Of a stretch of 49,297 bases of DNA, positions 6,555-49,297 are shown one piece after another; position 1 is the first letter of the stretch; every line of letters starts with the position of its first letter. The notes below the pieces were generated by a model, which saw only the letters and a program-made list of their open reading frames with translations, was not told the origin of the DNA and did no database searches. Source of the DNA: a virus. The translations under genes and the position numbers were made by a program. The DNA is taken from IMG/VR virus record IMGVR_UViG_3300046454_000397, positions 1 through 49,297 of that record; one strand, written 5' to 3'.

Positions 6555-6817
6555 AGTGCCTAAACTGCGGCGCGGTACTGGTCGAGGATCAGAAGTGGAT
6601 CTGCTCCAACGAATGTGGCGAAGCGTTGCGCAAGTCGCTGGAAGTTGCGAAGGACTACGGTGGCCTGGAGAATACCGAAGTTGCGTGCGACAAGTGCTGC
6701 GGTCACGGCGTTTACTGCTGGACGTGCGGCGAGATTGAGGCCGCCTGTCATTGCGACGACGGCGACGGTCTGCTCGGGCAGTGCGACAAGTGCGACGGCT
6801 CAGGAGTCACGGGTTGA
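6551..6817 (+). CDS. Small Cys-rich zinc-ribbon protein, 88 aa
   Basis: The ATG at 6551 is chosen because it forms an ATGA overlap with the polymerase stop. The protein has an N-terminal CLNCG motif (residues 3-7) followed by CSNECG. Further on come CDKCCGHGVYCWTCGEIEAAC and a final CDKCDGSG; the CxxCxGxG pattern resembles DnaJ-type zinc repeats. It probably binds two or more zinc ions. Small zinc proteins of this kind are common beside phage replication genes, but no specific role can be assigned. Confidence 0.75.
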   Translation: MKCLNCGAVLVEDQKWICSNECGEALRKSLEVAKDYGGLENTEVACDKCCGHGVYCWTCGEIEAACHCDDGDGLLGQCDKCDGSGVTG

Positions 6818-7047
6818 TGTGCCAGAAGCGCTGGCGGTTCGCGACGCAGTTCGAGGCCGAGGCGAAGGCCGGCGAGCTGGTGGCGCAGATCGGCTACCGG
6901 ATGGTCACCTACCGCTGCGACGACTGCCTGCTTTGGTGCCTGACGTCGAAGCGGGTCGGGGCTCGCTACTTTTCGCCCATCGACCCGTCTTCTTCCGAAA
7001 AGCCTTCCGCAAGGCGGGCAAGCGCTTCTCGGATAAGAAGACCGTGA
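6817..7047 (+). CDS. Small CxxC protein, 76 aa, overlapping an antisense gene
   Basis: The ATG lies in a TGATG overlap with the preceding stop. Residues 5-34 (RWRFATQFEAEAKAGELVAQ) and the following YRCDDCLLWCLTS resemble small phage proteins with a C-terminal zinc knuckle that ends in CxxCxxWHLTS. The last 26 residues are Ser/Arg rich and are read antisense to the 3' end of the DUF6378 gene. They may be an extension gained by loss of an earlier stop. Function unknown. Confidence 0.6.
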   Translation: MCQKRWRFATQFEAEAKAGELVAQIGYRMVTYRCDDCLLWCLTSKRVGARYFSPIDPSSSEKPSARRASASRIRRP

Positions 7048-7420
7048 AGCCGCGCTTCTTCTCGGTCTTGGTGAGAGGGCCGTCGGTGAAGGTTTGCATC
7101 GTTTTCACCGCGCCGAGCAGCTCGTCGCAGGCGCGCTTCACGTCGATGAGGCCGAGCGCGTCGTTGATCCGCTGCGCGTTCTCGGCGTAGCCGGCGACGT
7201 CGACGAGGTTGTCGCGCCCCGGGGAATGCCTGTCGCGGCTGAGCTTCTGCAGCACGTTCAGCATGCAGACGTCGCGGGCGCTGACCGCGGTGCCGAGGTA
7301 GGCGGACCACAGCGCCGCCGTGCGGCCGTGGTTCTCCGTTGGCGTGCCATAGGCCGCGGCGCGCGGTCCGCGGGTCAGTTCGGCGGCTTCTTCGAGAATC
7401 GACTTTTTTTGTTGTTCCAT
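6905..7420 (-). CDS. DUF6378 domain protein
   Basis: This gene runs leftward inside a rightward cluster. The ATG at 7420 is preferred to a TTG 18 nt upstream. The 171-aa protein carries LEEAAELTRGPRAAAYGTP (about residues 9-27), then NHGRTAALWSAYLG, DVCMLNVLQKLSRD and DNLVDVAGYAENAQRI. This matches the DUF6378 pattern found in many phages, sometimes compared with MazG-like all-alpha folds. The final 40 residues are Lys/Arg/Ser rich, overlap the opposite-strand gene by 143 nt and look poorly constrained. It shares a 38-bp divergent control region with the next rightward gene. Confidence 0.8.
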   Translation of the reverse strand: MEQQKKSILEEAAELTRGPRAAAYGTPTENHGRTAALWSAYLGTAVSARDVCMLNVLQKLSRDRHSPGRDNLVDVAGYAENAQRINDALGLIDVKRACDELLGAVKTMQTFTDGPLTKTEKKRGFTVFLSEKRLPALRKAFRKKTGRWAKSSEPRPASTSGTKAGSRRSGR

Positions 7421-33061: not shown

Positions 33062-36000
33062 TCAGATTGCGATCTTTGTCAGCGACGCGACGAGCCGCTG
33101 CCCGTCCTCGACGCTCGCGTCCGGCGTCTCGTTGAGGCCGTCGGCGGTGTTGCGCTCGAAGTCGTCGGCGTCCATCAGGAAGAACTGCGAGTCGGCCGCG
33201 CGCAGCTTCTGCAGGGCCGTGCGCACGGCCGCCGCCTCGGCGAACAGCGCGGAGACGGTCGCGAGCTGCGGCTGCCGGAAGATGACCGGTACCGGCGTCC
33301 CGCTGGTGCGCGTCGAGAAGTCGGCGCGAAGGTCGGCGACGAACTGCGCGAGCTGCGCGGCGAAGACCTCGCCGCCGCCGGTCACTGCTTGGTCCGTCGT
33401 GCCGAGGTCGACGAGGATCCCCTTCAGGTCGACCTGCTTGCCGAGCGTCAGGTTCGCCCATCGGCAGAACGCGCGCCACTGCGCCTGCAGCGCGGGGTAG
33501 TTCTCGGCGTACGCCTTCGACCAGCGGCCGCCGGCGGCGGGCGTGCCGGGGTAGGCGTCCGCGGTGTAGGCGACGACCGACGAGGCGAGCCCGCTGCTGT
33601 CGACCGCGCGCTTGACGAGGTAGCACCCGGTCGACGGGTGCAGGTTCATCAGCAGCGGCAGCATCGCGCACTCGGGGCCGGCGGTGTTGCTGAACGTGCC
33701 GCTGGTGTTCGCGTCGGCCGCGCTGACGTCGTAGGGGACGCCCTCGCCGCTGCGCGCGTCCCAGATCCCCTGCCGGCCGTCTCGGGCCGTGCCGGTGAGC
33801 GTCGGCGACTCCAGCTCGGTCAGGTAGGCCGGCGTGATAGGCCCGCGGAAGATCGAGTCGCCGAGCATCAGGTAGGTCGGCACCGCGCCGTTGATCGTCG
33901 GCGGCGCCGTGCCGGCGATCAGCAGGTCGTATGCTTGCCGCACCGCCTTCGCCATCGGGCCCCAGTAGACGTCGGCTTGGTAAAAGTTCTTGTTCTCGCT
34001 CGGCGCGAAGCCGGCGGTGCTGTCGAGGCAGAGCGGCTGCCCCTCCATCGACACGCAGCGCGAGAGACCGACCGCGTCGGCCGCGGCGACGTTCCGGTGG
34101 ATCGAGTTCGCATAGGACGTCCCGCTCGGCACCGCCACGTTGTTGATCTCGGCGGCGTGGTTGACGATCACCACCTTCAGGTTCGGGTTGCCGAGCGCCG
34201 TGCGGAAGTATGCGACGGTCTCCGTGAGCTTCTGCTGGTAGCTCGCTTGGTGCGCCGGGTTCGCGATCCAGTCGTTGACGTCGCGCTGGCTGTTGTCGAG
34301 CACGAGCAGGTCCCAGGCGAGCGCGTTGCCGTTCGCGAGCGCGGACCACGCCGTGTTCATCGCGGCGAGGTGCGCCGCGAAGGCGACCTTCGAGCTGCCG
34401 GTCGCGAGGTCGAACGCCGAGTAGGTCGGCGCGACCTGGAAGAACTTCGACAACTGGAAGTAGGGCGCCTGCGTGTAGGTGTTCTCCAGCAGCTCGCGGA
34501 CGAGACCGGCGTCGAGGCCGATGCCGGCGCCGAAGTTGCCCCACGAAGAACCGCCGCGCTTGCTGAGCGTGACCGCAGCCAGTTCCGTCACCGTGAGCCA
34601 GCCGGCGATCGCGTGGTAGTCGGTCCAGGCACCCTTCGCCGCGGTGCCGGTGTTGCCACCGATGAAGACCGGGTTGTTGGCCGTCGGGTTCGACGACCAC
34701 GCGCTGCCGACTTGCAGCGTGTCGGAGGTGTTGCCGATGACCACCTTGCGGTCCTGGAAGCCGAGGCTGTAGCCGGGCACGAAGCTGTTGCCGACCGTGA
34801 CCGTGTAGCCGATCCACTGGCCGGCGGACCAGCCGGGCGAGCCCGTGACCTGGACATGCGTCGAGTCGGTGCCGGCCGGGTTCACGGTGAACAGCACCGT
34901 GCCGTTCAAACCGTCGAACCACGGGAACCACGCCAGCGCCGCGGCGGTCGGCGCGCCGGTGCTCGGGTTGTCCGGGCAGACGCGCATGATCTTGTCGGGG
35001 TAGATCGACCGCAGCTCGGAGACGCCGGCCGACGTCACCTTCGCGTCGAGGCAGTTGACGCCCTTGCTCTGCCCGCCGTTGACCATGTAGTCGCCGACGA
35101 TCAGGACCGACGGCACCTGCAGGTTCGGCGGCGGCGGCGTGATGATGACCGACGTCTGGCCGGTGGTGACTCCAGACCAGTCGCTGTTGCCGGCCGCGTT
35201 GTGGCCGCGGACCTTGAAGTAATAGACGGTGTTCGCGTTCAGCCCGACGACCGTCGCGGACACGCCGTCGACGCCGGCGACGTTGGAGACGATCGTGTAG
35301 CTGACGCCGTTGGTGCTGTAGCCGATGTCGAAGCCGGTCTCGTTGTACGAGCCGGCTGCGGTCCAGGAGACGTCGATCGAGGCGTTCGTCGGGTTCGCGG
35401 TCGCGCCGATCGTCGGCACGTCCGGCGGCACGAGCGCGGTGGCGAACGCGGCGACCGCGTTGATCGCGCCGTTGCGCATCCAGTCGGCCACGTACTTGGC
35501 CTGCCAGATCGGGTTCCAATTCGTGACCCACTGCGCCTCGGCCTGCGCCTCGTAGGCCGCGCGCGTCGCGCTGATCCCGCGGAAGGTGCAGTAGTCGGTC
35601 AGTCGGCGCTTGACCGTCGGCGCTAGCGGGCTGCCCGGGTAGGTCGAGCCGCTATCGCCCGACTTCGTGTTCCACGATGCGTTCGACTGGTCAGCGTTGT
35701 TGTAGCGGAAGTTGTGCCCGTCGCCGTTCGCGCCGAAGACGTTGTTCGCGCCGACGCTCTGTCCCGCGCCCGGCACCCAGTCCTCGCCGTTGCGCGTCTG
35801 AATCGCGTAGGCACCGTGCCCCGTCGAGAACAGGTTGAGCACGTTGCGCCGGAACGTGATGAGGCCCGTGTAGCTCGCCGGCCGGTCGAACGCCATGAAG
35901 CCGTTCGTGTGCTGGACGTAGTTGTCGACGATCGTCGCGCCGGCGGCCGTGAAGGTGTTCGTCAGCCGCAACTGCACCTGCCCGCCGGCGAAGCCCGACA

Positions 36001-37879
36001 TCGGCTCGGAGCTGATCGCGTCGCTGTAGATCAGGTTGCGCTGGTAGGTGAAGAAGCCGTTGTTGTGGCCGCCGCCCTGGCCATCGTTGCTGTCCCAACT
36101 GAAGTAGCCGAGCTGGCCGCCGCTGAATCGGTCGATGATCTCGCGGAAGCCGTCGAAGGCGTTGTCCTGCACGGTCATCGCCTGCGTCGACAGCACCGCG
36201 TTGGACACGGCGTCGCGCTGCACGCCCTCCATCGAGATGCCGATCGACATCATGGCGAACACGCAGTTCTGAATCGTCCCGCCCGACCGCATCATGCAGT
36301 CGGCTTCACTGAAGTAGCAGTTGTCGATGGTGACGTTCGTGCAGCTCCGCTGCCCGTAGAGGCAGTGCCGGAAGATCGACGGCGTGGACCAGCAGACGCG
36401 GTAGAGTGTGCCGTTCGACGGCTGCGCGCCATAGTCGCCGTTGGCCCAGCCCTCGATCAGCGTCAGGTGCGTCAGATCCGGGACCGACGAGACGAGCCGC
36501 TGCAACCCGCCGACGTCGACCATGCGGCCAGCCGGGCTGAGGTTGCATGTGAAGGTGTCGCCGTTGATCGCGGTGCCGATCGCGCCGGACCATGTGATGC
36601 TGCTCGCGGTGTTCGCGGTGATCCGCTTCGACAAGCCGTTGTTCACGCCGCTCGTGAAGGTGATCGTCCCGCTGAGCATCGTGTTAACGCCGGGTAGCGT
36701 GTTGGCTGCGACGTTGACCGACGTCGTCGTGCCAGACGTGACGGTGATCGACGGGCCGATGACGAACGCCGCGGCGGAGTCGATCAGCGACGACGCGCCG
36801 TAGGTGACGGTGCCCCCGCTGTTCGTCGAGATGGTGTCGGCCGCGCTGCTGAAGCCGTTGCGCGGGAACCAGCACTCGGTGATCGACAGGTTGTCGATGG
36901 CGTGCAGCAGCAGGCCGGACGGGTTCTGCGGGCCGGCGTTACCGTTCGCACCGCTGATCCCGTAGTCGTAGCTGTCACCGATCCAGCAGCGGTGCAGCGT
37001 GACGCCGGTCAGCCGCGCCTGCTCGTTGCTGGCGCCGTTGTTGCCGGTGCAGATCAGGCCGAAGGAACCGTAGCGGAGGTGTAGGCCCTCGAAGATCCAG
37101 TCGATGCCGCCGCCAGTGCCCGCGCTGTAGGCCGCCTGGAAGGCGACGCAGTGCATCTGCCCGGTCGTGTTGTTGTTGAAGAAGTAGTTGCGGCGCGCGG
37201 TGATGCTCTGCGTCACGTCCCAGTGCTGGAGCATGATCCGCGGACGGTTGTCCGTGTTGCCCAGGTTGAACGGGATGCTGCTGTCACTGGCGGCGGTGCA
37301 CTTCGGGCGGCCGAGCGTGAAGTCGCCATAGCACGAGATGTTCGATTCGTCGGCGTTGATCGCGCCGGCACCGTTCGGGTGCCAGTCGAACTGCCGCGTG
37401 GTGAAGGTGTCGCCACACTTCCCGAGCAGCACGTCGCCAGACTGGAACAGCGTGTTCGTCCCGGGGTTCGCGTTGCTGTCCCACTGGAGCTTCGGCGAAG
37501 CGAGCGTCAACCCCGTGCCGGCATTCGTCGCGGTCGAGCTGACCCAGATCGACTTGTGCCCCGTGCTTTGCAGGACCGGCACGCGCCAGCCGCTGAGATC
37601 GGTGAAACGCGCCGCCGCCGCATAGGCTGGACGCACGACCTGCACCCAGATCGAGTCGTTGTGGTCCTTGACCCAGAAGTAGCGCGCGTGCGTGCTGTCG
37701 TTGGTGAAGTTGAAGCGCGCGAAGTCCTGACTGCCGGTGATCGTGCCGAGCGACGTGAAGCCGGTCGCGCCCGCCGCGTCGTCCGAGCACCGCGCGTCCC
37801 AGTCCGTCGCGCCGCCGCGCAGCAGGTGCAACTCGGTGAACCCACTACCGGAGACGGCGAACGGTGCGGAGACGGCCAT
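33062..37879 (-). CDS. Giant tailspike-like protein: beta-helix, FnIII, two SGNH-like domains (1605 aa)
   Basis: Residues about 90-780 form a long right-handed beta-helix region with many short strands (GLHLRYGSFGLICTGNNGAS, TVTYGASSLIDSAAAFVIG). Residues about 817-912 are a fibronectin type III domain (ASIDVSWTAAGSYNETGFDI, VYYFKVRGHNAAGNSDWSGV). Two SGNH/SASA-type hydrolase-like domains follow: one near 924-1330 (VLIVGDYMVNGG, LLVLDNSQRDVN) and one near 1336-1605 (LMLGDSIFRG, GILVDLGTTD, DADDFERNTADGLNE). Catalytic Ser is visible only in the second, and the expected His of the last block is replaced. It is likely a receptor-binding spike. Confidence 0.75.
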   Translation of the reverse strand: MAVSAPFAVSGSGFTELHLLRGGATDWDARCSDDAAGATGFTSLGTITGSQDFARFNFTNDSTHARYFWVKDHNDSIWVQVVRPAYAAAARFTDLSGWRVPVLQSTGHKSIWVSSTATNAGTGLTLASPKLQWDSNANPGTNTLFQSGDVLLGKCGDTFTTRQFDWHPNGAGAINADESNISCYGDFTLGRPKCTAASDSSIPFNLGNTDNRPRIMLQHWDVTQSITARRNYFFNNNTTGQMHCVAFQAAYSAGTGGGIDWIFEGLHLRYGSFGLICTGNNGASNEQARLTGVTLHRCWIGDSYDYGISGANGNAGPQNPSGLLLHAIDNLSITECWFPRNGFSSAADTISTNSGGTVTYGASSLIDSAAAFVIGPSITVTSGTTTSVNVAANTLPGVNTMLSGTITFTSGVNNGLSKRITANTASSITWSGAIGTAINGDTFTCNLSPAGRMVDVGGLQRLVSSVPDLTHLTLIEGWANGDYGAQPSNGTLYRVCWSTPSIFRHCLYGQRSCTNVTIDNCYFSEADCMMRSGGTIQNCVFAMMSIGISMEGVQRDAVSNAVLSTQAMTVQDNAFDGFREIIDRFSGGQLGYFSWDSNDGQGGGHNNGFFTYQRNLIYSDAISSEPMSGFAGGQVQLRLTNTFTAAGATIVDNYVQHTNGFMAFDRPASYTGLITFRRNVLNLFSTGHGAYAIQTRNGEDWVPGAGQSVGANNVFGANGDGHNFRYNNADQSNASWNTKSGDSGSTYPGSPLAPTVKRRLTDYCTFRGISATRAAYEAQAEAQWVTNWNPIWQAKYVADWMRNGAINAVAAFATALVPPDVPTIGATANPTNASIDVSWTAAGSYNETGFDIGYSTNGVSYTIVSNVAGVDGVSATVVGLNANTVYYFKVRGHNAAGNSDWSGVTTGQTSVIITPPPPNLQVPSVLIVGDYMVNGGQSKGVNCLDAKVTSAGVSELRSIYPDKIMRVCPDNPSTGAPTAAALAWFPWFDGLNGTVLFTVNPAGTDSTHVQVTGSPGWSAGQWIGYTVTVGNSFVPGYSLGFQDRKVVIGNTSDTLQVGSAWSSNPTANNPVFIGGNTGTAAKGAWTDYHAIAGWLTVTELAAVTLSKRGGSSWGNFGAGIGLDAGLVRELLENTYTQAPYFQLSKFFQVAPTYSAFDLATGSSKVAFAAHLAAMNTAWSALANGNALAWDLLVLDNSQRDVNDWIANPAHQASYQQKLTETVAYFRTALGNPNLKVVIVNHAAEINNVAVPSGTSYANSIHRNVAAADAVGLSRCVSMEGQPLCLDSTAGFAPSENKNFYQADVYWGPMAKAVRQAYDLLIAGTAPPTINGAVPTYLMLGDSIFRGPITPAYLTELESPTLTGTARDGRQGIWDARSGEGVPYDVSAADANTSGTFSNTAGPECAMLPLLMNLHPSTGCYLVKRAVDSSGLASSVVAYTADAYPGTPAAGGRWSKAYAENYPALQAQWRAFCRWANLTLGKQVDLKGILVDLGTTDQAVTGGGEVFAAQLAQFVADLRADFSTRTSGTPVPVIFRQPQLATVSALFAEAAAVRTALQKLRAADSQFFLMDADDFERNTADGLNETPDASVEDGQRLVASLTKIAI

Positions 37880-38365: not shown

Positions 38366-40255
38366 TCAGTGCAAGACCAACTCCGGCGGGAACCACTTGT
38401 TGCCGCCGGCCGCGTCGACCTGGAGCTGCCGCCAGATCGCGAGCGCCTTCGCGTCCGTCGGATCGGCGAGCAGAACCGTGGCCACCGACATCGGCATACC
38501 GAAGAGGTTGAACGACTCGTCGGCCGTGCCGCGCGTCCCGTCGACCGACTCCTGCGCGCGCGAGGTCCAGCGCGTGCCGTTCAGCAGCCACGCATCCGAG
38601 ACGACGCGGCGCGCAGCGCGTAGTGCAAGTGCGCGAGCATCAGCACGACCAAAAGTCCGGCCGCCAAGGTCCATGCCGTAGGCGCCGACAGACGCCTGCC
38701 ACGGAATCCACCACGCGCCAGTGCCAAGCCTCGGGTCGTCGAGGCGCACGTCCCAGATGTCGTTCGCCTTGACCGACAACTGCGGCAGCAGGATGGCGTC
38801 AAGCCGAGCGAGCCACCTGTCCCGAACTTGCGCAGCAAGCACACGGTCGCGCAGTGTCCACCAGCAGTCGCAGACGAGCAAGGCTTCCCAACCAATCGCG
38901 CGGCCGGCGTAGACCTGCGACGTCGAGAGGCCCGGCTTCACGGTCCACTGCAGCAGGTAGACGCGCGCGACGCATTCGAGGTCGAACTGCAGCGCATCGC
39001 TGCCGGTCAGCCGCGCGGAGACGGTCAACGTGTCGTTGAAGGCGTGTTCGACGTCCGGACCCCACCAACCATGCGTGTCGAGCGTCGTCAGCCCGCGCGA
39101 CTTGCCGAGTTGGTCCGGCGAGACGGACAGCGACCAGTGCGGGCGCCCGTCCCAGAAGACGAGGTTCGGGTGGTTCGCGAGGATCAGCGGGCCGCCGTTC
39201 GCTTCGAGATGGTGGCACGGGCGCGCGGCCTGCCGCAGCGCGGTCAGGTAGCGGACCGTCGCGGCACCGGGAACGCCGGCGGCGCACTCGGCGCCGACGA
39301 AGACCTCGTCCTCCTGCGCGCCGGTGTCGTTGCTCGATGCGTTCACGCCGAGCGGTCCCGACGTCCAGGCGTGGAGCTGCCCGAACGCCGAGCCGAAGTT
39401 CGAGCGCGTCCAGGTGAGCGCAGGCGTCCCCGAAGTGGGGTTGCCGAGCGGCCAGACGTTTGCGCACCCTTGCACGGCGATGGCCTGCGCGACTGCCGCG
39501 CCCGCCGACGTCCACTCCGTCGCGGCGTGCAAACGCGCCGGCCAGACGATCGTCAAGGGCATGCTGCGAGACTGTCCGTCGCCGAGCTGCTCGCCGGCGG
39601 CGACGAGCACGTTGCCCGACGTGCCGGCGACCACGACCGAAGCGTTGCCCCACGTCAGCGCGACGCCGGCCGGCACGGTCGCGACGACGTCAGGCACCGA
39701 CGGGTTGCTTGCGGTGACGACGACCTCGCCGCTGCACCAGCCCGGCTGGTCCGGATACCACTGCGCCCACAGCTCGGCGACGAGCATCGGCCCGATGCGC
39801 GAGCGGAAGTGCGCCGCGTAGGCCGCGCCGTCGGCTTCGACGGTGAGCAGTTGCAGGACCGTGCCGTTGACGACTGGCACGCCGCCGAAGAACGCTAGCG
39901 GGTCGGCCGGCAGCGGCGCGAGCGTCCACGCGGTCGAGGCTAGGGGCGTGAGCGTCACCGAGCGCGCGGTGTTCGGGTCCAGGTGCAGGCGCACGTCGAG
40001 GACGTGCAAGCCGACGCCGAAGGCGTGCCCGACGACCCAGGTGCTGCCGTCCGACGCAGTGCCCTTCAGCGCCGGCGGCTCGACGTCAGTCGTCGTCCGC
40101 CGCCAGCCGTCGAACGCCGCGCCAGAGTAATTCGCGACGGCGATCGTCTGCGCCGAGGCAGCGGTCGCGATGGCGGCTATGCCGGCAAGCGCGCACAGCA
40201 GCGGCAACCAGACGGCGCGCAAGTCGGCGAAGAACGCGGAGCGGTGAGTTCGCAT
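38366..40255 (-). CDS. Signal-peptide-bearing protein of unknown function, 629 aa
   Basis: The ATG at 40255 opens a classical Sec signal peptide: basic start (MRTHRSAFFADLR), hydrophobic core (VWLPLLCALAGIAAIATAA) and an ASA|Q cleavage site near residue 36. The mature protein is large and strand-rich at first (TTDVEPPALKGTASDGSTWV), then has helical segments such as GWEALLVCDCWWTLRDRVLA and LAARRVVSDAWLLNG, hinting at an alpha/alpha-toroid as in some glycosidases. No family recognised. Export to the periplasm or outer surface is unusual for a phage gene in this position. Confidence 0.7.
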   Translation of the reverse strand: MRTHRSAFFADLRAVWLPLLCALAGIAAIATAASAQTIAVANYSGAAFDGWRRTTTDVEPPALKGTASDGSTWVVGHAFGVGLHVLDVRLHLDPNTARSVTLTPLASTAWTLAPLPADPLAFFGGVPVVNGTVLQLLTVEADGAAYAAHFRSRIGPMLVAELWAQWYPDQPGWCSGEVVVTASNPSVPDVVATVPAGVALTWGNASVVVAGTSGNVLVAAGEQLGDGQSRSMPLTIVWPARLHAATEWTSAGAAVAQAIAVQGCANVWPLGNPTSGTPALTWTRSNFGSAFGQLHAWTSGPLGVNASSNDTGAQEDEVFVGAECAAGVPGAATVRYLTALRQAARPCHHLEANGGPLILANHPNLVFWDGRPHWSLSVSPDQLGKSRGLTTLDTHGWWGPDVEHAFNDTLTVSARLTGSDALQFDLECVARVYLLQWTVKPGLSTSQVYAGRAIGWEALLVCDCWWTLRDRVLAAQVRDRWLARLDAILLPQLSVKANDIWDVRLDDPRLGTGAWWIPWQASVGAYGMDLGGRTFGRADARALALRAARRVVSDAWLLNGTRWTSRAQESVDGTRGTADESFNLFGMPMSVATVLLADPTDAKALAIWRQLQVDAAGGNKWFPPELVLH

Positions 40256-40266
40256 GGCGCAGCATC

Positions 40267-40653
40267 CTACTGTGGAACGGGCTGACGCAAAGGACCGCGG
40301 CACATCTCGACGAGGATGTCGTCGCACACCCGCCGCAGCATCTCGGGAGAAGCCGCCTCGGTGTGCACCAGCTTCGACAGGCGGAACTCGCCGCACTCGT
40401 CGGGGTGCCATACGCGGCGACCGTCGGTCGTCTTGCGCAGCACGACGGCGCGGACGTCGCAGCGCAGCTCTATTGTGTTGTCGAAGTAGAGGCGCTCGGG
40501 GTTCTCGACGCGCGCCAGCTTGATCTGCGTCGCGCGGCCGATCTCCTTGCCGCGCTCGTACAGCAAGGCGCTCATGCGGTCGCGCTCCTTCGTCACGCGC
40601 TTCAGTTGCGCCAGCACGCGAGCGAGACGGTTACGGTTCTTGACAGCGCTCAT
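40267..40653 (-). CDS. Hypothetical protein, 128 aa
   Basis: ATG start within an ATGA overlap. The N-terminal third is a basic helix with heptads (RLARVLAQLKRVTKERDRMS), then strands with NTIELRCDVRAVVLRKTTDG and a helical C-terminal part (SPEMLRRVCDDILVEMCRG). It resembles phage early proteins of unknown role. Member of a string of four small genes driven from the promoter at 41289-41317. Confidence 0.6.
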   Translation of the reverse strand: MSAVKNRNRLARVLAQLKRVTKERDRMSALLYERGKEIGRATQIKLARVENPERLYFDNTIELRCDVRAVVLRKTTDGRRVWHPDECGEFRLSKLVHTEAASPEMLRRVCDDILVEMCRGPLRQPVPQ

Positions 40654-42233: not shown

Positions 42234-43853
42234 CTACGGCCGCCAGCGGCCCGCCGAGTCCCGGTCGCCGGCCATCGCGTCACCCCCGTCGGGCCGGTCG
42301 TCGGGATGCGTGTCGGGGCCGTCCGGCTTCACCGTCGCCTGGGCGGCCGCTGGGGGCTCCCTGCGCCCGAAGGCGTGCGCTTCGAGCCAAGCCCAGGCCC
42401 CGCTGGTTGCGTCGACCTGATCGCACAGCGCGGCCTCGGGGAAGCCTTCCAGCTCGTCGACGTAACCCTGCGTCCACGGCCCGGCGAACAGGCGCAGGCC
42501 ATCCCGCTGCGTCAGCGGCGGCAAGTCCTTGTCGGCGCCCCACCACTTGCCGCCGGTGTTGCCGCACTCGCCCCGGCGCTGGTAGCCGCGCTCCAGGCAC
42601 GACGCCACCGGGTCGGCGCGACGCTGCTTGGCGTCGAGCCCGACCGAGTTCCTGGCCATGGCGCTGTTCTCCTTCCAGGTGAGCTGCCGCGCCTCCTGCG
42701 GCCGAGCGCCGACGACGCGGAAACCCTCGGCCTTCAGGCGCGTCTGCAGCGCGTCGAACTGCGCGATGCCGCCTGAGCCGCCCTCGATCTCGATGCCGAC
42801 GACGACGTGCCGGCCATCGATGTGCGCCTGCTGCACGATCTTGTCGTCGCGCTTGCCGGGCGTCGCCTTGAACGCCGTCGCGTGCTCGACGAAGCGACAG
42901 CCCGCGCGCACGCGCGCCATCAGCACGCCGGCAGTGCGCGCGGCGTCCTGCTTCTCACTGGCGGCGAGGTCCCACCAGCGCACGCGGACCGTCTCGGAGG
43001 TCGGCAGGACACTCTCGGCCGGGTCGAGCATCGGCCCGAACCACTCGACGCGGAAGTAGTCGCCCGGGTCGCGCGCCGACCAGTCGCCGTCGAGCAGCTG
43101 CCGGCGCCGCGTCGGGTGCATGTCGCGCAGCGTCTCCTTGTAGGGCTCGCGGTCGAGCGACGGGTTGTCGTCGATGCGCGACGGGATGTAGCTGCCCACC
43201 GCGGCGACGACCTGCTGCGTCGCCGGGTCGACGCCACCCATGAAGCGCCGCTTCACCCAGTCGTGCCCCGGGCCGCCCGGGTTGCTCGTCGCGATCATGC
43301 GCAGCGGGATCGGGTCGTCGATGTTCTTGCGGCATCGACTGCGCAGCAGCTCGTAGGTCGACTCCAGCGGCCAGTGCGTCAGCTCGTCGAAGCCGATCAG
43401 GTGCCAGTCGCTGCCGTAGAACTGCAGGTCGTCGCGCGTCGTGCCGTCGTGGTAGCCCATCACGACGCGCGCGCCGCTCGGGAACTCGAAGGCGCTGTCG
43501 TCGCCGAGCCACTTCACGCCGGCGGGTAGCCACAGCCGCTTGGCCTTGTCGATCAGGTTGCCGGGCAGCTTCGCCTCAGTGCGCGAGCGGCGCAGCAGCA
43601 CGGCGCGGAACTGCGGGTAGTGCCACGCGTACTGCGCCGCGGCGATCAGCAGGCCGTAGCTTTTGCCGCCACCGGCCGCGCCGCCGAACAGGATCTCGAA
43701 CACGGGCTTCTCGCAGCCGACGTGCGCGCCGAGCAGCTTCCGTTGCTTCGGATGCGGCAGCGACAGCGGCCCCATGTAGGGGTTGCCGAGCGTCTGCGGG
43801 CACATCCGCTCGAACTGCAGCACGGCCTTGTCGCCGAGGTCGATCGTCGTCAC
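42234..43853 (-). CDS. terL: Terminase large subunit
   Basis: 539 aa from the GTG at 43853, which overlaps the preceding stop by GTGA; longer in-frame starts are rejected. The ATPase domain has Walker A GGAAGGGKSYG (K64), Walker B HLIGFDE (D156, E157) and a coupling-type motif MIATSNPGG (187-194). The nuclease domain has RWWDLAAS (D295), GIEIEGGSGG (E355, E357) and a late DQVDATSGAW with conserved Asp. The enzyme packages DNA into the procapsid and cuts it; the sequence is of the type found with Mu-like and other headful or cos systems. The C-terminus is Asp/Pro/Gly rich. Confidence 0.95.
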   Translation of the reverse strand: MTTIDLGDKAVLQFERMCPQTLGNPYMGPLSLPHPKQRKLLGAHVGCEKPVFEILFGGAAGGGKSYGLLIAAAQYAWHYPQFRAVLLRRSRTEAKLPGNLIDKAKRLWLPAGVKWLGDDSAFEFPSGARVVMGYHDGTTRDDLQFYGSDWHLIGFDELTHWPLESTYELLRSRCRKNIDDPIPLRMIATSNPGGPGHDWVKRRFMGGVDPATQQVVAAVGSYIPSRIDDNPSLDREPYKETLRDMHPTRRRQLLDGDWSARDPGDYFRVEWFGPMLDPAESVLPTSETVRVRWWDLAASEKQDAARTAGVLMARVRAGCRFVEHATAFKATPGKRDDKIVQQAHIDGRHVVVGIEIEGGSGGIAQFDALQTRLKAEGFRVVGARPQEARQLTWKENSAMARNSVGLDAKQRRADPVASCLERGYQRRGECGNTGGKWWGADKDLPPLTQRDGLRLFAGPWTQGYVDELEGFPEAALCDQVDATSGAWAWLEAHAFGRREPPAAAQATVKPDGPDTHPDDRPDGGDAMAGDRDSAGRWRP

Positions 43854-44281
43854 ATCAAGTCCTCGATCGTCTTCGGCTCCGGTCGCACGAGCCGGATCGT
43901 CGGCCGCTCGCGCCGGAGCTGGTCGGTGAAGTCGTGCAAGTCCTCGATCGCGTCGGCGAGTTCGCCGGCGTCGGGCAGCATCGGGACGCCGTTGCTGCTC
44001 GACGCGGTCGTCGCCGCCGGCGCGGGCATCTGCACGATGTGGGGCGTGTCGAGGCGCGCGAACAGCTTGATGAGTTCGCGCGCGGCCGGCACGTCGCCCT
44101 GGATCGCGGCGTTGCTCAGGCCCTTCACCACGTTCCACATCATCTTCTCAAGCGTCGTGTTCTCCTCGCGCGCGTAGCGGTCGCAGACCGCGATCAGGTC
44201 GAGGCGCCGGCCGCGGCCGCGGATGACGTGCACGACGGCGCGCTCGGCGCTCGGATCGACGGGCAGCTCGTTGGTGGTCAT
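43850..44281 (-). CDS. Probable terminase small subunit, 143 aa
   Basis: Position directly before the large subunit with GTGA coupling. Residues 26-70 are helical with RRLDLIAVCDRYAREENTTL and MMWNVVKGLSNAAIQGDVPA, followed by ARELIKLFARLDTP. The element GLxxAAxxGDxxAARxLxxxx.R.D is seen in small terminase-like phage proteins. The C-terminal part is acidic then basic. It would recognise the packaging site, but no site can be named. Confidence 0.65.
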   Translation of the reverse strand: MTTNELPVDPSAERAVVHVIRGRGRRLDLIAVCDRYAREENTTLEKMMWNVVKGLSNAAIQGDVPAARELIKLFARLDTPHIVQMPAPAATTASSSNGVPMLPDAGELADAIEDLHDFTDQLRRERPTIRLVRPEPKTIEDLM

Positions 44282-44688
44282 CCGATCAAGTCCTCGATGC
44301 TGGCCGGCTGGCCGCTGCGCTTGGCCCGCTCGCCGGTCATCGCTTCCCAGCGCTGCACGACGACGTCGCAGTACGCCGGGTCCATTTCCATCGCGAAGCA
44401 TTGGCGCTCGGCCTGCTCGCAGGCGAGCAGCGTCGAGCCGCTGCCGGCGAACGGGTCGTAGACCGTCGTCGCGAACGGCGTATTGCCGAGCAGCTCGACG
44501 AGCAGGCCGACCGGCTTCTCGGTGGTGTGGTGCTCGTTGCCCGTGCGCTGCGCGCCGATGACGTTGCCCGCGCCACTCGCGTGCTTGTCGATGGGCGGCG
44601 TGTCCTTGCAGGCCCATAGCACCAGCTCGTGCTGCGCGCGACCCTCTCCGCACGCCGCGGCGATCGGTGGCGGTAGCCGCAGAAACAC
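44278..44688 (-). pseudogene. Truncated DNA methyltransferase (C-terminal part only)
   Basis: The 136-aa frame contains the end of a beta-class N4/N6 DNA methyltransferase: HHTTEKPVGLLVELLGNTPF, the SAM-binding motif DPFAGSGSTLLACEQAE and MEMDPAYCDVVVQRWEAM. The N-terminal half with the catalytic DPPY-type motif is absent, and the earliest possible start is a GTG near the break. Upstream in another frame a 4-nt ATGA link from the HTH gene leads into a short unrelated reading. It is probably a remnant that can bind SAM at best, perhaps left after a deletion. Confidence 0.75.
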
Positions 44689-44713: not shown

Positions 44714-45037
44714 TCATCGCTGTCGCTCCCAGAACTGCACCAACGCGCCGACCTGCTCAGGCTTGAGCATGCCGCGCTCGGCGCGGTTGATCCACGACGT
44801 GCCGAGGCCGGTCATCTCGCTGAGCTGGCCGAGCGTGAAGCCGGCGCGCTCGCGGCGCACGAGGCACCACTCGTGCGGTTCGAGCTGCGTTGACCGCGGG
44901 TCGCCCGGATCGGTCTCCCAGCGTCGCAGCGTCTGCGTGCTGACGCCGCACATCGCCGCGGCCTCGGCGACCTTCATCTTTGAGCGCCGTCGGCAGAGCC
45001 GCGTGCATTCACCAACGGTGATGTCGAGCGTCTTCAC
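44714..45037 (-). CDS. Helix-turn-helix protein, 107 aa
   Basis: GTG at 45037 overlaps the upstream stop; an ATG 20 codons later is an alternative. Two DNA-binding-like motifs are seen: MKVAEAAAMCGVSTQTLRRW (MerR-type helix-turn-helix, about 20-39) and a Cro/XRE-type GFTLGQLSEMTGLGTSWINR (about 68-87). Likely a transcription regulator, placed before the packaging genes, so it may time their expression. Confidence 0.75.
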   Translation of the reverse strand: MKTLDITVGECTRLCRRRSKMKVAEAAAMCGVSTQTLRRWETDPGDPRSTQLEPHEWCLVRRERAGFTLGQLSEMTGLGTSWINRAERGMLKPEQVGALVQFWERQR

Positions 45038-45273
45038 TGATCTTGCTTCTTCGCTGCGCGATGCAACGCACGCACAGCTTCTGGGGTGGTGATGATCTTG
45101 GAAGTCAGCATCTTCGGCAGCACTTTGTCGTGGTAGCAAGAGTCGCAGCACCGCCCAAGGCTGGCGTCGGAAAAATCCGGTTCGCGATTGAAGACGTCGC
45201 GGTACTCCTCGGAAGCTCCCGGGAAAGTCTGCGGATCAAGCTGCCGCCCACATAGATCGCAAGAAGAAGTCAT
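45034..45273 (-). CDS. Small Cys-rich protein, 79 aa
   Basis: ATG in an ATGA overlap with the resolvase gene. It has CDLCGRQLDP near the start and CCDSCYHDKVLPKMLT in the middle, giving a CxxC...CxxC site for one zinc. The C-terminus is helical and basic. Small zinc proteins of this kind accompany RusA genes in many phages; role unknown. Confidence 0.65.
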   Translation of the reverse strand: MTSSCDLCGRQLDPQTFPGASEEYRDVFNREPDFSDASLGRCCDSCYHDKVLPKMLTSKIITTPEAVRALHRAAKKQDQ

Positions 45274-45785
45274 TGCGGATACCACCATACACGAACGCGC
45301 GCGCCGACGGTCGGGACTCGCAGCCAGTACTTGTGCGACTGCACCCACACCACCTGCGCATCGTCGAACCACAGCAGCGGCGGCAGGTCGTTCCACGCGC
45401 CGAGCGCGTCGAGCACCATCTTCGCGAGGTTGTCGACGTCGGGCCGCTTCAGCATCGACACCGGCGCCGTGTCCCTGAGCAGTCGAGGCACTTGGTACGC
45501 CTTGTTCTTGTAGTGCGTCTGCGGTCGCAGGAAGCCGAAGCCGATCGCGACGTGGAACGCGCCGTCGCGCGGCCACATGCTCTCAGGGTTCGCGGTCGTC
45601 AGCGCCGTCGGGAACTCTCGGGTGATGCGCTCGATCGCACTAGCACGCACTTGGTGCCCCCAGGGGTCGGCGCTGCGGTTCGGGTAGACGTGCCCGTGCT
45701 TCGACTTCACCGGCCGGGGCCACGCGGCGGGCTGACCGGGCACGAAGAACTCGACGGTCGGAGGGGCCTTCTTGTTGGACTTCAC
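45270..45785 (-). CDS. rusA: RusA-type Holliday junction resolvase
   Basis: 171 aa from a GTG with GGAG about 10 nt upstream; an ATG 18 codons further up lacks a ribosome site. The motifs FFVPGQPAAWPRP (13-25), KRPDVDNLAKMVLDALG (113-129) and WFDDAQVVWVQSHKYW (139-154) hold the conserved acidic residues D116, D118, D126, D141, D142 and the Lys of the RusA active site. The enzyme resolves four-way junctions formed in replication and recombination before packaging. It lies next to the presumed origin. Confidence 0.9.
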   Translation of the reverse strand: MKSNKKAPPTVEFFVPGQPAAWPRPVKSKHGHVYPNRSADPWGHQVRASAIERITREFPTALTTANPESMWPRDGAFHVAIGFGFLRPQTHYKNKAYQVPRLLRDTAPVSMLKRPDVDNLAKMVLDALGAWNDLPPLLWFDDAQVVWVQSHKYWLRVPTVGARVRVWWYPQ

Positions 45786-45820
45786 CGGGTTTCTGCTCCT
45801 TGGTATAAAACACCAAAGGA

Positions 45821-46104
45821 GTGGTTCTGCCCAGGACATCCTGCGCCGCGGACTCTCTTAAGAGAGAGTCCCGCGCGCGGATCGTGTCTTTTTTCGTTGT
45901 GGTTCTGCTGGTTCTGAATGGTTCCGGTCGCCATAACTACTTGTCCTGTAAGGGCCACACCGCCGAGCTGGTTCTGCTGGTTTCCTGCTGGTTCAACGGA
46001 CGTAAACTAGCAGATGTTTGATAATAGCAAATCATTCTGGTCCGGCGCACGTAAGTCCTTTCTCTGTAAGCTCCAGAAATGCGCACTGGTTCAGGCTGGT
46101 TCCG
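45821..46104. other. Iteron-like GGTTC repeats, putative replication origin
   Basis: Within and just beside the 246-bp gap between RusA and the RepA-like gene, the core GGTTC (or one-base variants) occurs at about 45823, 45901, 45910, 45920, 45970, 45979, 45990, 46039, 46088 and 46098. Neighbours in a cluster are 9-11 bp apart and clusters about 50 bp apart, so they face the same side of the helix. The gap also has the A+T-rich stretch 46002-46034 inside an otherwise G+C-rich genome. A helicase loader or initiator bound here is plausible. Apart from a hairpin and the repeats, I see no gene in this gap. Confidence 0.5.
45850..45871. other. Perfect 8-bp inverted repeat in the putative origin
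   Basis: GGACTCTC (45850-45857) and GAGAGTCC (45864-45871) form a perfect 8-bp stem with the loop TTAAGA. A run of six T follows only 16 nt later on the plus strand, so it is not a standard terminator. It may be an operator or a DNA cruciform element beside the origin. Confidence 0.5.
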
Positions 46105-47612
46105 GCCGTATTCTTTTTCGCGCCTAGGTATGTGTTTTTTATCAAGCCCAAAACGTGCAGCCGATCCAGGCCCTCGTCGACGACCTTTCCACGCTTCAGA
46201 CCTGCCAGCGCGATCGTCTCCCGGCGCGAGAAGCGCGTCTTCACGTTGCCCAGGTTCGCCGCCGCCTTCCACAGCGCGCCGAGCACCGGGTCGACCAGCA
46301 GGTCGGTCAGGTCGTCCGCCGCGGCGTCGAAGTCCGCCGGGGTGGTGCGCAGCACGACCGTCGTGACGTCGCGCCCCTTCTCGTCCTGCCCCACGGTGAC
46401 GACCTGCAGCTCGCCGCGCAGGGGCTCCGGCTCTGCCCAGTCCTTCGCCTTGGCGCTGAAGGCGTGCGCGCCTAGCTTGCCGATCTTCTGCACCTGGAAG
46501 GCGAAGTCGCAGGCCGGCAGCATCACCGAGCTGCCGCGCATGCGCGTCTTGTCGCCGTGCCCCATGTGGTGCACCGGCACGCAGCAGCAGCGGAGCTGCC
46601 GCGACAGCGCCGTCAGGTGCTGCACGAAGCGGTTCATGTCGTCGGTGGCGGACTCGTTGCCGGGGCCGAAGTTCTGCGCCTGCGTGTCCACGACGAGTAG
46701 CGCGATGCCGTCCGGGAAGCGCTTCCGGATGGCTCGCAGCCACCGGGCCGCGTCTTCGGCGTCGCAGAGCTGCCCAGGCTGCCGCGTCACGACGAGCGGC
46801 GGCCGCTTGCCAAGCTCGATGCCGTGGTGCTGCAGCTCGGCGCGCAGGCGCTTCTTCAGGCCGTCGCGGCCCTCGCCGATCATGTAGACCACGGGGCCGT
46901 GCACGTCGACCTCGTGCCCGAACCAGTGCGTGAGCTGCTCGAAGGCGACGTGCAGCGCGAGCGATAGCACGAACGGCGTCTTGCCGGCGGCGCTGTCGCC
47001 GTAGAACTGTCCCAGGCCCGTGCGCGGGATCAGGTTGTGCACGAGGAACTCGTAGCCGCCGGCTTCGGCCAGGAACTCGTCGGCATCCTGGAGCAGCGAA
47101 TCGAAACCAGATTCTGAACTTTTTTCTGCCCCCGTGTCGGGTTTGAACCACTCGGCGGCCACCTGCTTGGCGGGCTGGCTGAAGGCTTGCGCAGCGCCGG
47201 GACGCTTGCTGGCGACGCGCGCGAGGTCGCGGCTGACCCAGTTGCGCCGTCCATAGCGCGCCGGTTCCTTGGAGTCGTCCACTTCGCCGCGGCCCCACGC
47301 GGTACGCGTCAGCAGGAAGCTGAGCGCCGCTTCGCCGTGCCCTCGCGCGGCGAGCAGCACCGAGCGCTCGACTTCCGCGAAGGCTTCGTTCGCGGACCAG
47401 CCAGGGTGCCCGATGACGTCGCGCAGGTGGTGCCAGTCGGCGTCGAGCATCGCCGCGTGGTGCGGCTCGACGGCCTCGAAGGTCGCGGCGATCTCGTCGG
47501 CGCTTGGCGGCGCGCCCTGGCCCTTCGGCAGCGCCACCACTCCGCCCGCGGCGCCGGTGTCTTCACCGATGCCGAAGCGTTCGCGCGCCCAGTCGAGGAA
47601 GCTAGACGTCAC
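46032..47612 (-). CDS. RepA-like hexameric replicative helicase (AAA ATPase)
   Basis: 526 aa from a GTG; the start overlaps the PrimPol stop by 11 nt. Residues 1-160 are a helical N-terminal region. The RecA-type core has Walker A YGDSAAGKT (204-212), Walker B IALLVVDTQ (303-311) and CVPVHHMGHGDKTRMRGSS (344-362), all features of RepA/AAA_25 replicative helicases. The C-terminal part is a winged-helix-like tail (LGLIKNTYLGAKKNTAG). With the upstream primase-polymerase it would form the primosome, encoded as two proteins rather than a fusion. Its 3' end overlaps the iteron-like repeats. Confidence 0.85.
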   Translation of the reverse strand: MTSSFLDWARERFGIGEDTGAAGGVVALPKGQGAPPSADEIAATFEAVEPHHAAMLDADWHHLRDVIGHPGWSANEAFAEVERSVLLAARGHGEAALSFLLTRTAWGRGEVDDSKEPARYGRRNWVSRDLARVASKRPGAAQAFSQPAKQVAAEWFKPDTGAEKSSESGFDSLLQDADEFLAEAGGYEFLVHNLIPRTGLGQFYGDSAAGKTPFVLSLALHVAFEQLTHWFGHEVDVHGPVVYMIGEGRDGLKKRLRAELQHHGIELGKRPPLVVTRQPGQLCDAEDAARWLRAIRKRFPDGIALLVVDTQAQNFGPGNESATDDMNRFVQHLTALSRQLRCCCVPVHHMGHGDKTRMRGSSVMLPACDFAFQVQKIGKLGAHAFSAKAKDWAEPEPLRGELQVVTVGQDEKGRDVTTVVLRTTPADFDAAADDLTDLLVDPVLGALWKAAANLGNVKTRFSRRETIALAGLKRGKVVDEGLDRLHVLGLIKNTYLGAKKNTAGTSLNQCAFLELTEKGLTCAGPE

Positions 47613-48168
47613 GGACTTGGAGCCCGCTGCCGAGGTAGTGGTCGCCGGTCATCGTCACGTAGCCGGCAGGGCCGGTGCCGAAGACCTGCCACTCGGGAAG
47701 CTTCTCGCAGTGGGGCGGCGGGGGCGCCTTCAGCGTCGTGCGCGTGCGCTGTCCCAGCTTGAAGAGGCCGTCGGCCGCGGCGATCCAAAGATGCAGCCCG
47801 TAGCCTGACGGGCTGACCTCGCAGTAGCTGCGGCCGGCGACGTTGAGCGTCTCTTCGGCCCAGTCCGACACGGCGCCAGTTTTCGGGTCGCGGCATGCGT
47901 CCATGTCGACGCAGAGCACCGGCGAGCGTTCCGGTTTCAGCAGGCCGCCGGTCATCACGAGTCCGATGCCGGTGGCGTCGTTGATCGGTCCTTCTTCTAG
48001 CACGTCGGCGAGTTCGCGCCACCTGGACGCATCGCGCGTGCTGCAGTCCGGGACCTTGGTGCGCCTGCCGCCGGCGTTTTCGCGCAGCGTCCACCGCAGC
48101 CATCTGCGGTGCTTGCTCCAGTCGGCGAAGAGGGGGAGAGACAGCAACCGCGCGAGCGCGTCAGACAT
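47602..48168 (-). CDS. Primase-polymerase (PrimPol-type) domain protein
   Basis: 188 aa with ATG start. Motifs of phage bifunctional primase/polymerase N-terminal domains: WLRWTLRENAGGRRTKVP (23-40), DATGIGLVM (64-72), LCVDMDAC with catalytic D88 and D90 (85-92), and the SPSGYGLHLWI motif with H126 (119-129). The domain synthesises primers de novo. It lacks a helicase part, which is supplied by the next gene. Divergent from the SNF2 gene by 106 bp, it begins the leftward replication unit. Confidence 0.9.
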   Translation of the reverse strand: MSDALARLLSLPLFADWSKHRRWLRWTLRENAGGRRTKVPDCSTRDASRWRELADVLEEGPINDATGIGLVMTGGLLKPERSPVLCVDMDACRDPKTGAVSDWAEETLNVAGRSYCEVSPSGYGLHLWIAAADGLFKLGQRTRTTLKAPPPPHCEKLPEWQVFGTGPAGYVTMTGDHYLGSGLQVRDV

Positions 48169-48274: not shown

Positions 48275-49297
48275 ATGCAGCTCTACGAGCACCAAGTTTC
48301 CGGCGCCGAGTTCCTGGCCGCGCGCGATCGCGCGATGCTGTGGGACGAGCAGGGCCTCGGGAAGACCGTGACGGCGATCGTCGCCGCCGACGCTGCGAAG
48401 TGCAACCGCGTACTGGTCTGCTGTCCGAGCGTGGTGCTGCTGAACTGGGCGCGCGAGTGGAGCGTCTGGTCTCCGAACCGGACGGTCCAGATCATCGACG
48501 CCGGCGACGTGCAGCTCGACGGCAGCGCGGTCGTACTCGTCACCCACGACCTGTTGCGGTCGCCGCGCGTCTGGGCACAACTGCGAGCGGCGAAGTTCGA
48601 GCTGCTGGTGGTCGACGAGGCGCACAACTTCCGGAACCGCACGGCCCAGCGCAGCAAGCGCTTGTGGGGCGTCAGGGCGAAGCCCGACGTGCCGCGGCTG
48701 GTCGCGCAGTTCCCGCGCGTCTGGCCGCTGACCGGCACGCCGATGCCCAACAACGCCGCCGAGTTGTGGGCGCCGCTGTGGGCGCTCTGGCCCGACGAGT
48801 TCGCCGGCTACACGATGTTCCGCGAGCGCTACTGCCAGCTCGCGCACAGCGACTACACGCCCGACCGTGTCAAGGTGGTCGGCAACAAGAATCTGGGCGA
48901 GCTGCGCGCCAAGCTGGCCGGCAAGTTCCTGCGCAGGCTGAAGTCGGAGTGCCTGTCGCTGCCTGAGCGGCGCTTCGAGCAGGTCGTGGTCGGCACCGGG
49001 CGGTTGCCGCCCGACCTGCAGCGGGCCAACGCCATGGTGCGGGCCGCCTGGGAGGGCGCCGTTGCGGAGGGCAACGGGTTGGCAGCGGCCAGCGAGTCGC
49101 TGGAGTTCGCGACGTGGCGGCGTCTCTGCGGCACCGCCAAAGCCGCCGCCGCGGCCGAGATGCTGGCCGCCGAGCTGGCCGACGGCGCGCTGGGCAAGGT
49201 CGTAGTGTTCGTGCACCACCGGGACGTCATGCGCGTGATCGCGGAGCGGCTGGTGTCGTACGGCGTGCGCTGGCGGGCCGGCGACATGACCGGGAAG
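48275..49297 (+). CDS. SNF2-family helicase, N-terminal part (gene continues at the left end)
   Basis: Start ATG at 48275 follows the promoter closely. Visible motifs are Walker A DEQGLGKT (24-31, K30), motif Ia region VLVCCPSVVLLNWAREW, motif II DEAH (114-117) and motif III LTGTP (152-156). The frame is open to the window end and continues at base 2 of the left end to the stop at 334. The family remodels protein-DNA complexes or drives branch migration. At the join, the codon differs between the two copies (CGG Arg here, CTG Leu at the left end), which is most easily read as population variation or an end-of-contig error. Confidence 0.9.
   Translation, partial: MQLYEHQVSGAEFLAARDRAMLWDEQGLGKTVTAIVAADAAKCNRVLVCCPSVVLLNWAREWSVWSPNRTVQIIDAGDVQLDGSAVVLVTHDLLRSPRVWAQLRAAKFELLVVDEAHNFRNRTAQRSKRLWGVRAKPDVPRLVAQFPRVWPLTGTPMPNNAAELWAPLWALWPDEFAGYTMFRERYCQLAHSDYTPDRVKVVGNKNLGELRAKLAGKFLRRLKSECLSLPERRFEQVVVGTGRLPPDLQRANAMVRAAWEGAVAEGNGLAAASESLEFATWRRLCGTAKAAAAAEMLAAELADGALGKVVVFVHHRDVMRVIAERLVSYGVRWRAGDMTGK
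49255..49297. repeat. Right copy of the 43-bp terminal overlap
   Basis: Matches bases 1-43 at 42 of 43 positions. The overlap keeps the helicase frame and implies a unit genome of about 49,254 bp. Confidence 0.85.

Follow-up and report, generated by a model that had tools for sequence, protein, structure and literature searches.

The alpha protein of bacteriophage P4 is an SF3 primase-helicase, and the ori and crr of this phage are separate sites. Alpha is a phage replication helicase whose winged-helix domain binds origin repeats (PMC4234260). The Rep helicase of SaPI and the Cch2 helicase of SCCmec use a C-terminal domain to read iterons located directly downstream of their own genes (PMC7581432). 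The pRN1 protein ORF904 combines a prim-pol with a helicase; its origin lies just 3' of the gene and includes a required stem-loop (PMC4234260). At the oriV of RSF1010, the iterons are read by a separate protein, RepC, and not by RepA (PMC4234260). In the PLE satellites of Vibrio cholerae, the DNA-binding domain of the RepA_N initiator is swapped together with the origin as one module. Replication requires a cognate pair, and selection by an origin-directed nuclease may drive diversification (PMC8263062).

Here, we describe an array of short repeats at the 3' end of a RepA-like helicase gene in the virus record IMGVR_UViG_3300046454_000397, whose entire 49,297 bp are referred to as the window. 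The array is very probably the replication origin of this phage; it appears to be read by the phage's own helicase through the C-terminal ~95 residues, and the helicase would be loaded there. Similarly to the SaPI Rep-ori system, the iterons are located directly 3' of the helicase gene; in related clades, co-variation and natural swaps point to C-terminal specificity, with which the window's own clade is only consistent. Published descriptions class the SaPI and SCC helicases as MCM-like or D5-family, whereas the helicase studied here matches only AAA_25 (PF13481, RecA-type, RepA-like) and belongs to a complete tailed phage that encodes a primase and PolA of its own. In contrast to P4, there is one contiguous array after the helicase gene, and the primase gene is separate. 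A large stem-loop 3' of the replication gene is a feature shared with pRN1, which has an SF3 helicase and, unlike the window, no iterons. The RepA helicase of RSF1010, which is AAA_25-like, also works at an origin with iterons. The description of that plasmid (PMC4234260) does not include an array at the 3' end of repA. The RepA_N initiator of PLE reads its origin via the N-terminal domain, in contrast to the helicase C-terminus proposed here. In the open-access literature searched, we found no account of AAA_25 phage helicase genes with an iteron origin at their 3' end. The logic of such systems is already known; the setting, the cassette exchange and the readable specificity helix appear to be new in the literature searched.

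Genomic context of the array

The ends of the record (1–43 and 49255–49297) overlap by 43 bp with one mismatch, hence the record is a circular map; it is cut inside a gene, and an SNF2-like helicase gene is split by these ends. The minus strand encodes, in this order, a primase-like protein, the AAA_25 helicase, and, after the gap, RusA, a small Cys-rich protein, a tandem-HTH protein, TerS and TerL. The helicase gene (46032–47612, minus strand) encodes a RepA-like protein of hexameric type (526 aa) that matches AAA_25 (Pfam E 8.8e-25) and PHROG primase/helicase families. A separate prim-pol-like primase gene is located upstream of it (47602–48168, minus strand; PHROG DNA primase families, E 7e-12). 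The gene downstream of the array encodes a RusA-like Holliday junction resolvase (45270–45785, minus strand; Pfam RusA E 9e-12, PHROG 8e-21) with a likely GTG start at 45785, chosen by comparison with the relative L008. The helicase stop is separated from this start by a gap at 45786–46031.

Two very long minus-strand ORFs, 33062–37879 (1605 aa) and 38366–40411 (681 aa), lie in the presumed structural region and have no PHROG match. In L008, the HTH gene and TerS are separated by a ParB-N-like/DNA methyltransferase gene (5890–7113), of which the window retains only approximately the last 120 residues at 44281–44640 (87.5% identity).

Structure of the iteron array

The array contains ten sites with the sequence GAACCA on the minus strand (TGGTTC on the plus strand), eight of them exact. 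Numbered along the minus strand, iterons 1 (46097–46102), 2 (46087–46092) and 3 (46038–46043; degenerate GGACCA, which is GAACCA in the relative L003) are within the helicase gene. Triplet I is formed by iterons 4 (45989–45994), 5 (45978–45983, AAACCA) and 6 (45969–45974), and triplet II by iterons 7 (45919–45924), 8 (45909–45914) and 9 (45900–45905); iteron 10 (45822–45827) is located beyond the hairpin described below. The first coordinate of each site is the first base of plus-strand TGGTTC, with GGTTT at 45978 and GGTCC at 46038, and the successive spacings from 45822 to 46097 are 78, 9, 10, 50, 9, 11, 49, 49 and 10 bp.

GGTTC occurs eight times in 315 bp; 2000 dinucleotide shuffles gave 0.57 copies on average and never more than four. 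The enrichment of GGTTC over the entire window is only mild (122 vs 92), and no other 300 bp of the window contain more than two copies of GAACCA. Phasing of the ten sites is strong at a period of 9.8–9.9 bp (vector length 0.92) and not strong at 10.5 bp (0.32). The array is real, far beyond chance, and unique in the genome. The first-pass annotation had listed ten near-identical GGTTC cores, mostly spaced by 9–11 bp in clusters and ~50 bp between them, phased more regularly than expected by chance, and flanked by helicase and Holliday resolvase genes; all of this holds, the flanking genes being confirmed by Pfam and PHROG. Its statement that the sites run into the helicase 3' end is also correct, with the right-most three inside the gene, and the boundaries of its noncoding gap are corrected to those given above.

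Clustered and phased short direct repeats are also like parC-type sites, and the array might be viewed as a partition centromere (parS/parC-like) of a plasmid-like prophage. The examined array-adjacent genes include no ParA/ParM-like partner, and the linkage is to the helicase, which makes such a function extremely improbable.

Distribution of arrays in other phages

A protein search identified 230 phage records with a related helicase domain (25–33% identity for the best matches). Twenty loci from these records were surveyed for arrays at a threshold of z above 3.5. An array immediately follows the helicase gene in nine phages (z 3.6–14.6): PB15 and XX1924 of Alteromonas, 1N2-2 of Idiomarinaceae, ct3Oc712, RHph_N65 and 16-3 of Rhizobium, EBPR siphovirus 5 (EBPR5), and CRP-406 and CRP-823 of Roseobacter; no array is present in their 5' helicase flanks. 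The array of Salicola phage CGphi29 is weaker (z 2.5). About half of the sampled AAA_25 phages have no clear array, including Gordonia, Mycobacterium, Nocardia, Caulobacter and some Vibrio phages; one of the loci counted as array-less, L025, reaches z 3.5, yet has no regular 9–12 bp spacing. The motif is phage-specific: GGCGGAGAT, GGCGGAAGT, GGTTCA, GGTACA, GGGACA, GCGTGACA or CTACAAA. The primase part is variable (Toprim or Prim-Pol; fused or separate), and the AAA_25 domain, the C-terminal domain and the array form the constant trio.

Scans of IMG/VR yielded two larger samples, group A with 76 relatives of the CRP-823 helicase (70 usable loci) and group B with 80 relatives of the PB15 helicase (74 usable loci). 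One scan confirmed 544 candidate AAA_25 phage helicases among its first 600 pattern matches. At least seven copies of one 6-mer are found at the helicase 3' end in 55 of the 70 group A loci and 39 of the 74 group B loci. The same criterion selects 4 of 1997 and 10 of 2596 other windows of those loci, respectively (14 of 4593 together). A single spacing pattern (10, 47, 9, 9–10, 12, 20, 9, 21 and 7–8 bp) is common to many motifs in group A. The spacers between clusters in prim-pol-fused phages contain a TAAGT(CATTG/GCTTG)AAATC-like word (L020 5140–5230, L201 5215–5310, L203 3315–3400), possibly a second binding site. Another word, TGTAAG...GAAAT, recurred in the linkers of a few arrays, failed across 85 regions and was dropped.

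The distribution of arrays bears on whether the repeats could be a packaging (cos/pac) site bound by the small terminase. A TerS homologue (43850–44281) and the large terminase are encoded 1.5–2 kb from the array, and TerS has strongly diverged between the window and its relative L004 (34%). However, the arrays of RHph_N65 and CRP-823 are several genes away from the terminase and still abut the helicase gene, and a packaging site would leave unexplained the DnaA boxes and the co-variation with the helicase described below. We rejected this very unlikely function since the array tracks the helicase and not the terminase.

A+T-rich stretch, hairpin and DnaA boxes

The most A+T-rich 100 bp of the window (45981–46080, 56%) lie between clusters and are a candidate unwinding region. 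A hairpin with a TTAA loop is located at 45838–45882 (DNA fold z −4.5). It is the counterpart of a CCTWWAGG palindrome that occupies the hairpin tip in other clades, in 20 of 26 and 25 of 47 arrays (~90- to 120-fold enriched). The corresponding DNA-fold z values are −4.3 in L004, −3.2 in CRP-823 and −4.9 in PB15, and both the window and L004 have a hairpin with a CTTAAG tip after the array. The palindrome at the hairpin tip, CCTTTAGG/CCTATAGG, is conserved in groups A and B while the surrounding iterons change (L033 4150–4205, L021 5225–5290); a terminator, a primase start and a cruciform are its candidate roles. An Rfam search of 45000–47000 detected no RNA family.

The A+T-rich stretch and the 8-bp palindrome of the first-pass annotation are both present, the former being the richest of the contig and the latter only the tip of the longer hairpin. 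Its expected cumulative GC-skew minimum at the array was not observed: skew reaches its minimum at 3877, and the array is 7.2 kb away. The array is likewise unmarked by GC skew in four other complete array-bearing phages, and since skew is blind to the array in all five phages, we regard this test as uninformative rather than refuting.

In group B, a perfect DnaA box (TTATCCACA) is found in the array region of 18 of 47 non-redundant arrays. The density of boxes is 2.2 per kb in arrays vs 0.055 per kb elsewhere in the same loci (40-fold; p 1e-36). The boxes of L115, L116, L121, L135, L139, L152 and L165 lie on both sides of the array at the near-fixed positions +6, +18 and +196 from the helicase stop. 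The placement of boxes in group B suggests that host DnaA aids initiation in that clade only. No DnaA box, even with one mismatch, is present near the window array, and a DnaA-driven origin in the window itself was rejected for this reason. A DnaA box is a common, not universal, feature of iteron origins. Their other features, namely helically phased repeats beyond chance, an A+T-rich region by the repeats and an adjoining gene for the putative cognate initiator, are found here; in the distant phages, as in the window, the array lies directly against the helicase gene.

Helicase C-terminus and motif specificity

The proposed iteron reader, the C-terminal ~95 residues of the helicase (46035–46319, minus strand), has no Pfam model and could be a winged-helix domain. 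An AlphaFold prediction of the helicase from a three-row alignment was unusable (pLDDT 36), and profiles of reader domains matched no solved structure in PDB. No match was obtained between the reader profiles of group A and group B, and we therefore do not propose that the two derive from one winged helix.

In group B, the partial correlation between the motif and the identity of the last 95 residues is 0.68 given the core (0 of 2000 permutations), and that between the motif and the core is −0.32 given the C-terminus, both computed with no phylogeny correction. In group A, also uncorrected, the motif correlates with the C-terminus given the core at 0.33 (0 of 2000 permutations) and with the core given the C-terminus at 0.31, so that this group alone cannot separate the tail from the core. 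Among the top 20 motif-tied alignment columns, 19 are C-terminal in group B and six in group A. The group B columns peak at residues 602–624 of PB15, a single predicted helix that is hypervariable while the rest of the domain is conserved. The helix E[TA]SAKQY[IL]K is paired with GGTAAC, EASAKVYIK with GGGAAC, E[SA]TAKNY[TM]K with GGTTCA or GGTACA, AERTVRNM[VI]N with GGGTCA, and KPRTIENDLS with AGGGGG. Such pairs, among them the first two (E-[TA]-SAK-Q-YIK and EASAK-V-YIK), suggest a residue-to-base recognition code readable from sequences.

Natural swaps are stronger evidence than the correlation statistics for the tail as a putative reader. The helicases of L121 and L140 have cores that are 97% identical, tails that are 51% identical, and different motifs, GGTAAC vs AGGGGG. 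CRP-823 and CRP-821 share ~95% identity in the helicase core and 88–97% in the next gene, and identity dips to 53–79% only across the last ~130 helicase residues and the array. Conversely, CRP-823 and CRP-811, as well as CRP-821 and CRP-831, have the tail and the motif in common, with cores that are less alike. At the level of sequence comparison, the motif thus appears to follow the last ~95 residues of the helicase and not its core, and the swaps appear to exchange only the tail and the array.

The latter observation is relevant to two other interpretations. The array could be an operator for a phage regulator controlling the operon from RusA to the terminase, with the hairpin as a terminator. 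A suitable regulator would be the tandem-HTH protein (44714–45037), which is encoded 0.8 kb downstream and folds confidently as two HTH units (pLDDT 94); from the window to L004, its N-terminal HTH changes along with the motif, and promoter or terminator roles could coexist with an origin. On the other hand, the HTH gene is confined, among the relatives found, to the window's small clade, whereas arrays follow the helicase in many phages with other genes downstream, and the downstream gene of the CRP pair stays 88–97% identical while the array and the helicase C-terminus are swapped. An operator was rejected on these grounds and is improbable. In the L004 HTH protein, the N-terminal unit has strongly diverged and the C-terminal unit is conserved.

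The other interpretation accepts an origin and assigns iteron reading to a separate small initiator. It has a precedent in RSF1010, where the related RepA helicase leaves this role to RepC (PMC4234260), and the fold of the window helicase C-terminus could not be modelled. The specificity-linked residues nevertheless sit in the helicase itself, and the exchanged tracts hold only the helicase C-terminus and the array. We find a separate initiator unlikely and favor reading by the helicase. A general Pfam/PHROG scan of the neighbouring proteins gave no RepC-like match.

Array and helicase in the window's clade

The window's clade has three independent members; no more were retrieved with helicase, RusA, HTH and terminase queries, and bacterial genomes gave no match to the clade in these queries. 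The helicase of the relative L004 (IMGVR_UViG_3300047471_000656) is 62% identical to that of the window, and the same gap carries a different repeat, GCGCCAAG. The six central sites of L004 are spaced by 11, 9, 49, 10 and 9 bp, compared with 11, 9, 50, 10 and 9 bp in the window. This agreement within 1 bp was reached by none of 20000 random placements; permutation of the window's own gaps reached it in 1054 of 20000 cases. As the repeat differs and the spacing is the same, the motif has been replaced at all sites with the architecture retained.

The window and L003 are 90% identical in the helicase core and 98% in the C-terminal tail, and have the same motif; the window and L004 are 67% identical in the core and 35% in the tail, and their motifs differ. 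Within the tail, the scaffold FS.R...ALA.L.R...LGLIK is kept in the clade and the intervening segment has changed. In L003, a 92% relative, the site bases show no extra conservation (4 changes in 70 positions in sites vs 18 in 295 elsewhere). With only three independent members, the clade agrees with the motif following the tail, which is consistent with a C-terminal reader and not a proof of it. The repeat conservation in relatives that was proposed as a check is thus observed for position and spacing, and the motif changes as a set.

Proposed mechanism and implications

The partner of the array is a replicative helicase, and DnaA boxes accompany the arrays of group B. These observations favor a replication origin, and nothing comparable supports an operator, a packaging site or a centromere. 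The iteron-type origin suggested in the first pass is supported by the conservation of position and spacing, by the group B DnaA boxes, and by co-inheritance of the array with the helicase C-terminal domain.

We propose that several helicase copies bind the phased iterons by their C-terminal ~95 residues, and that the phasing would set helicase hexamers on one face of the DNA, beside the A+T-rich stretch and the hairpin. The duplex would open there, the helicase would be loaded, and the separately encoded phage primase would then begin synthesis. The reader domain ends the gene and the iterons start at its end, hence the reader and the origin form one contiguous cassette. Exchange of this cassette by recombination could alter specificity in a single event and leave the helicase core in place.

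On balance, these arrays probably represent a class of phage origins that is widespread and unannotated. In this class, a replicative helicase of RecA type has its own origin-recognition domain, and the domain and the iterons form a portable cassette that determines specificity. Diversifying selection, perhaps exerted by origin-directed nucleases or origin-parasitising satellites, would change the recognition helix and the entire array together.

The origins of most uncultivated phages are unknown. Searching for phased repeats where an AAA_25 helicase gene ends is a simple rule that gives a candidate origin in most loci of both sampled groups. The matched natural swaps offer a test of how an initiator shifts its specificity without loss of function, as both the helix and the repeat are visible in sequences. 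The same information yields predictions as to whether given phages, satellites and plasmids are able to use each other's replication proteins.
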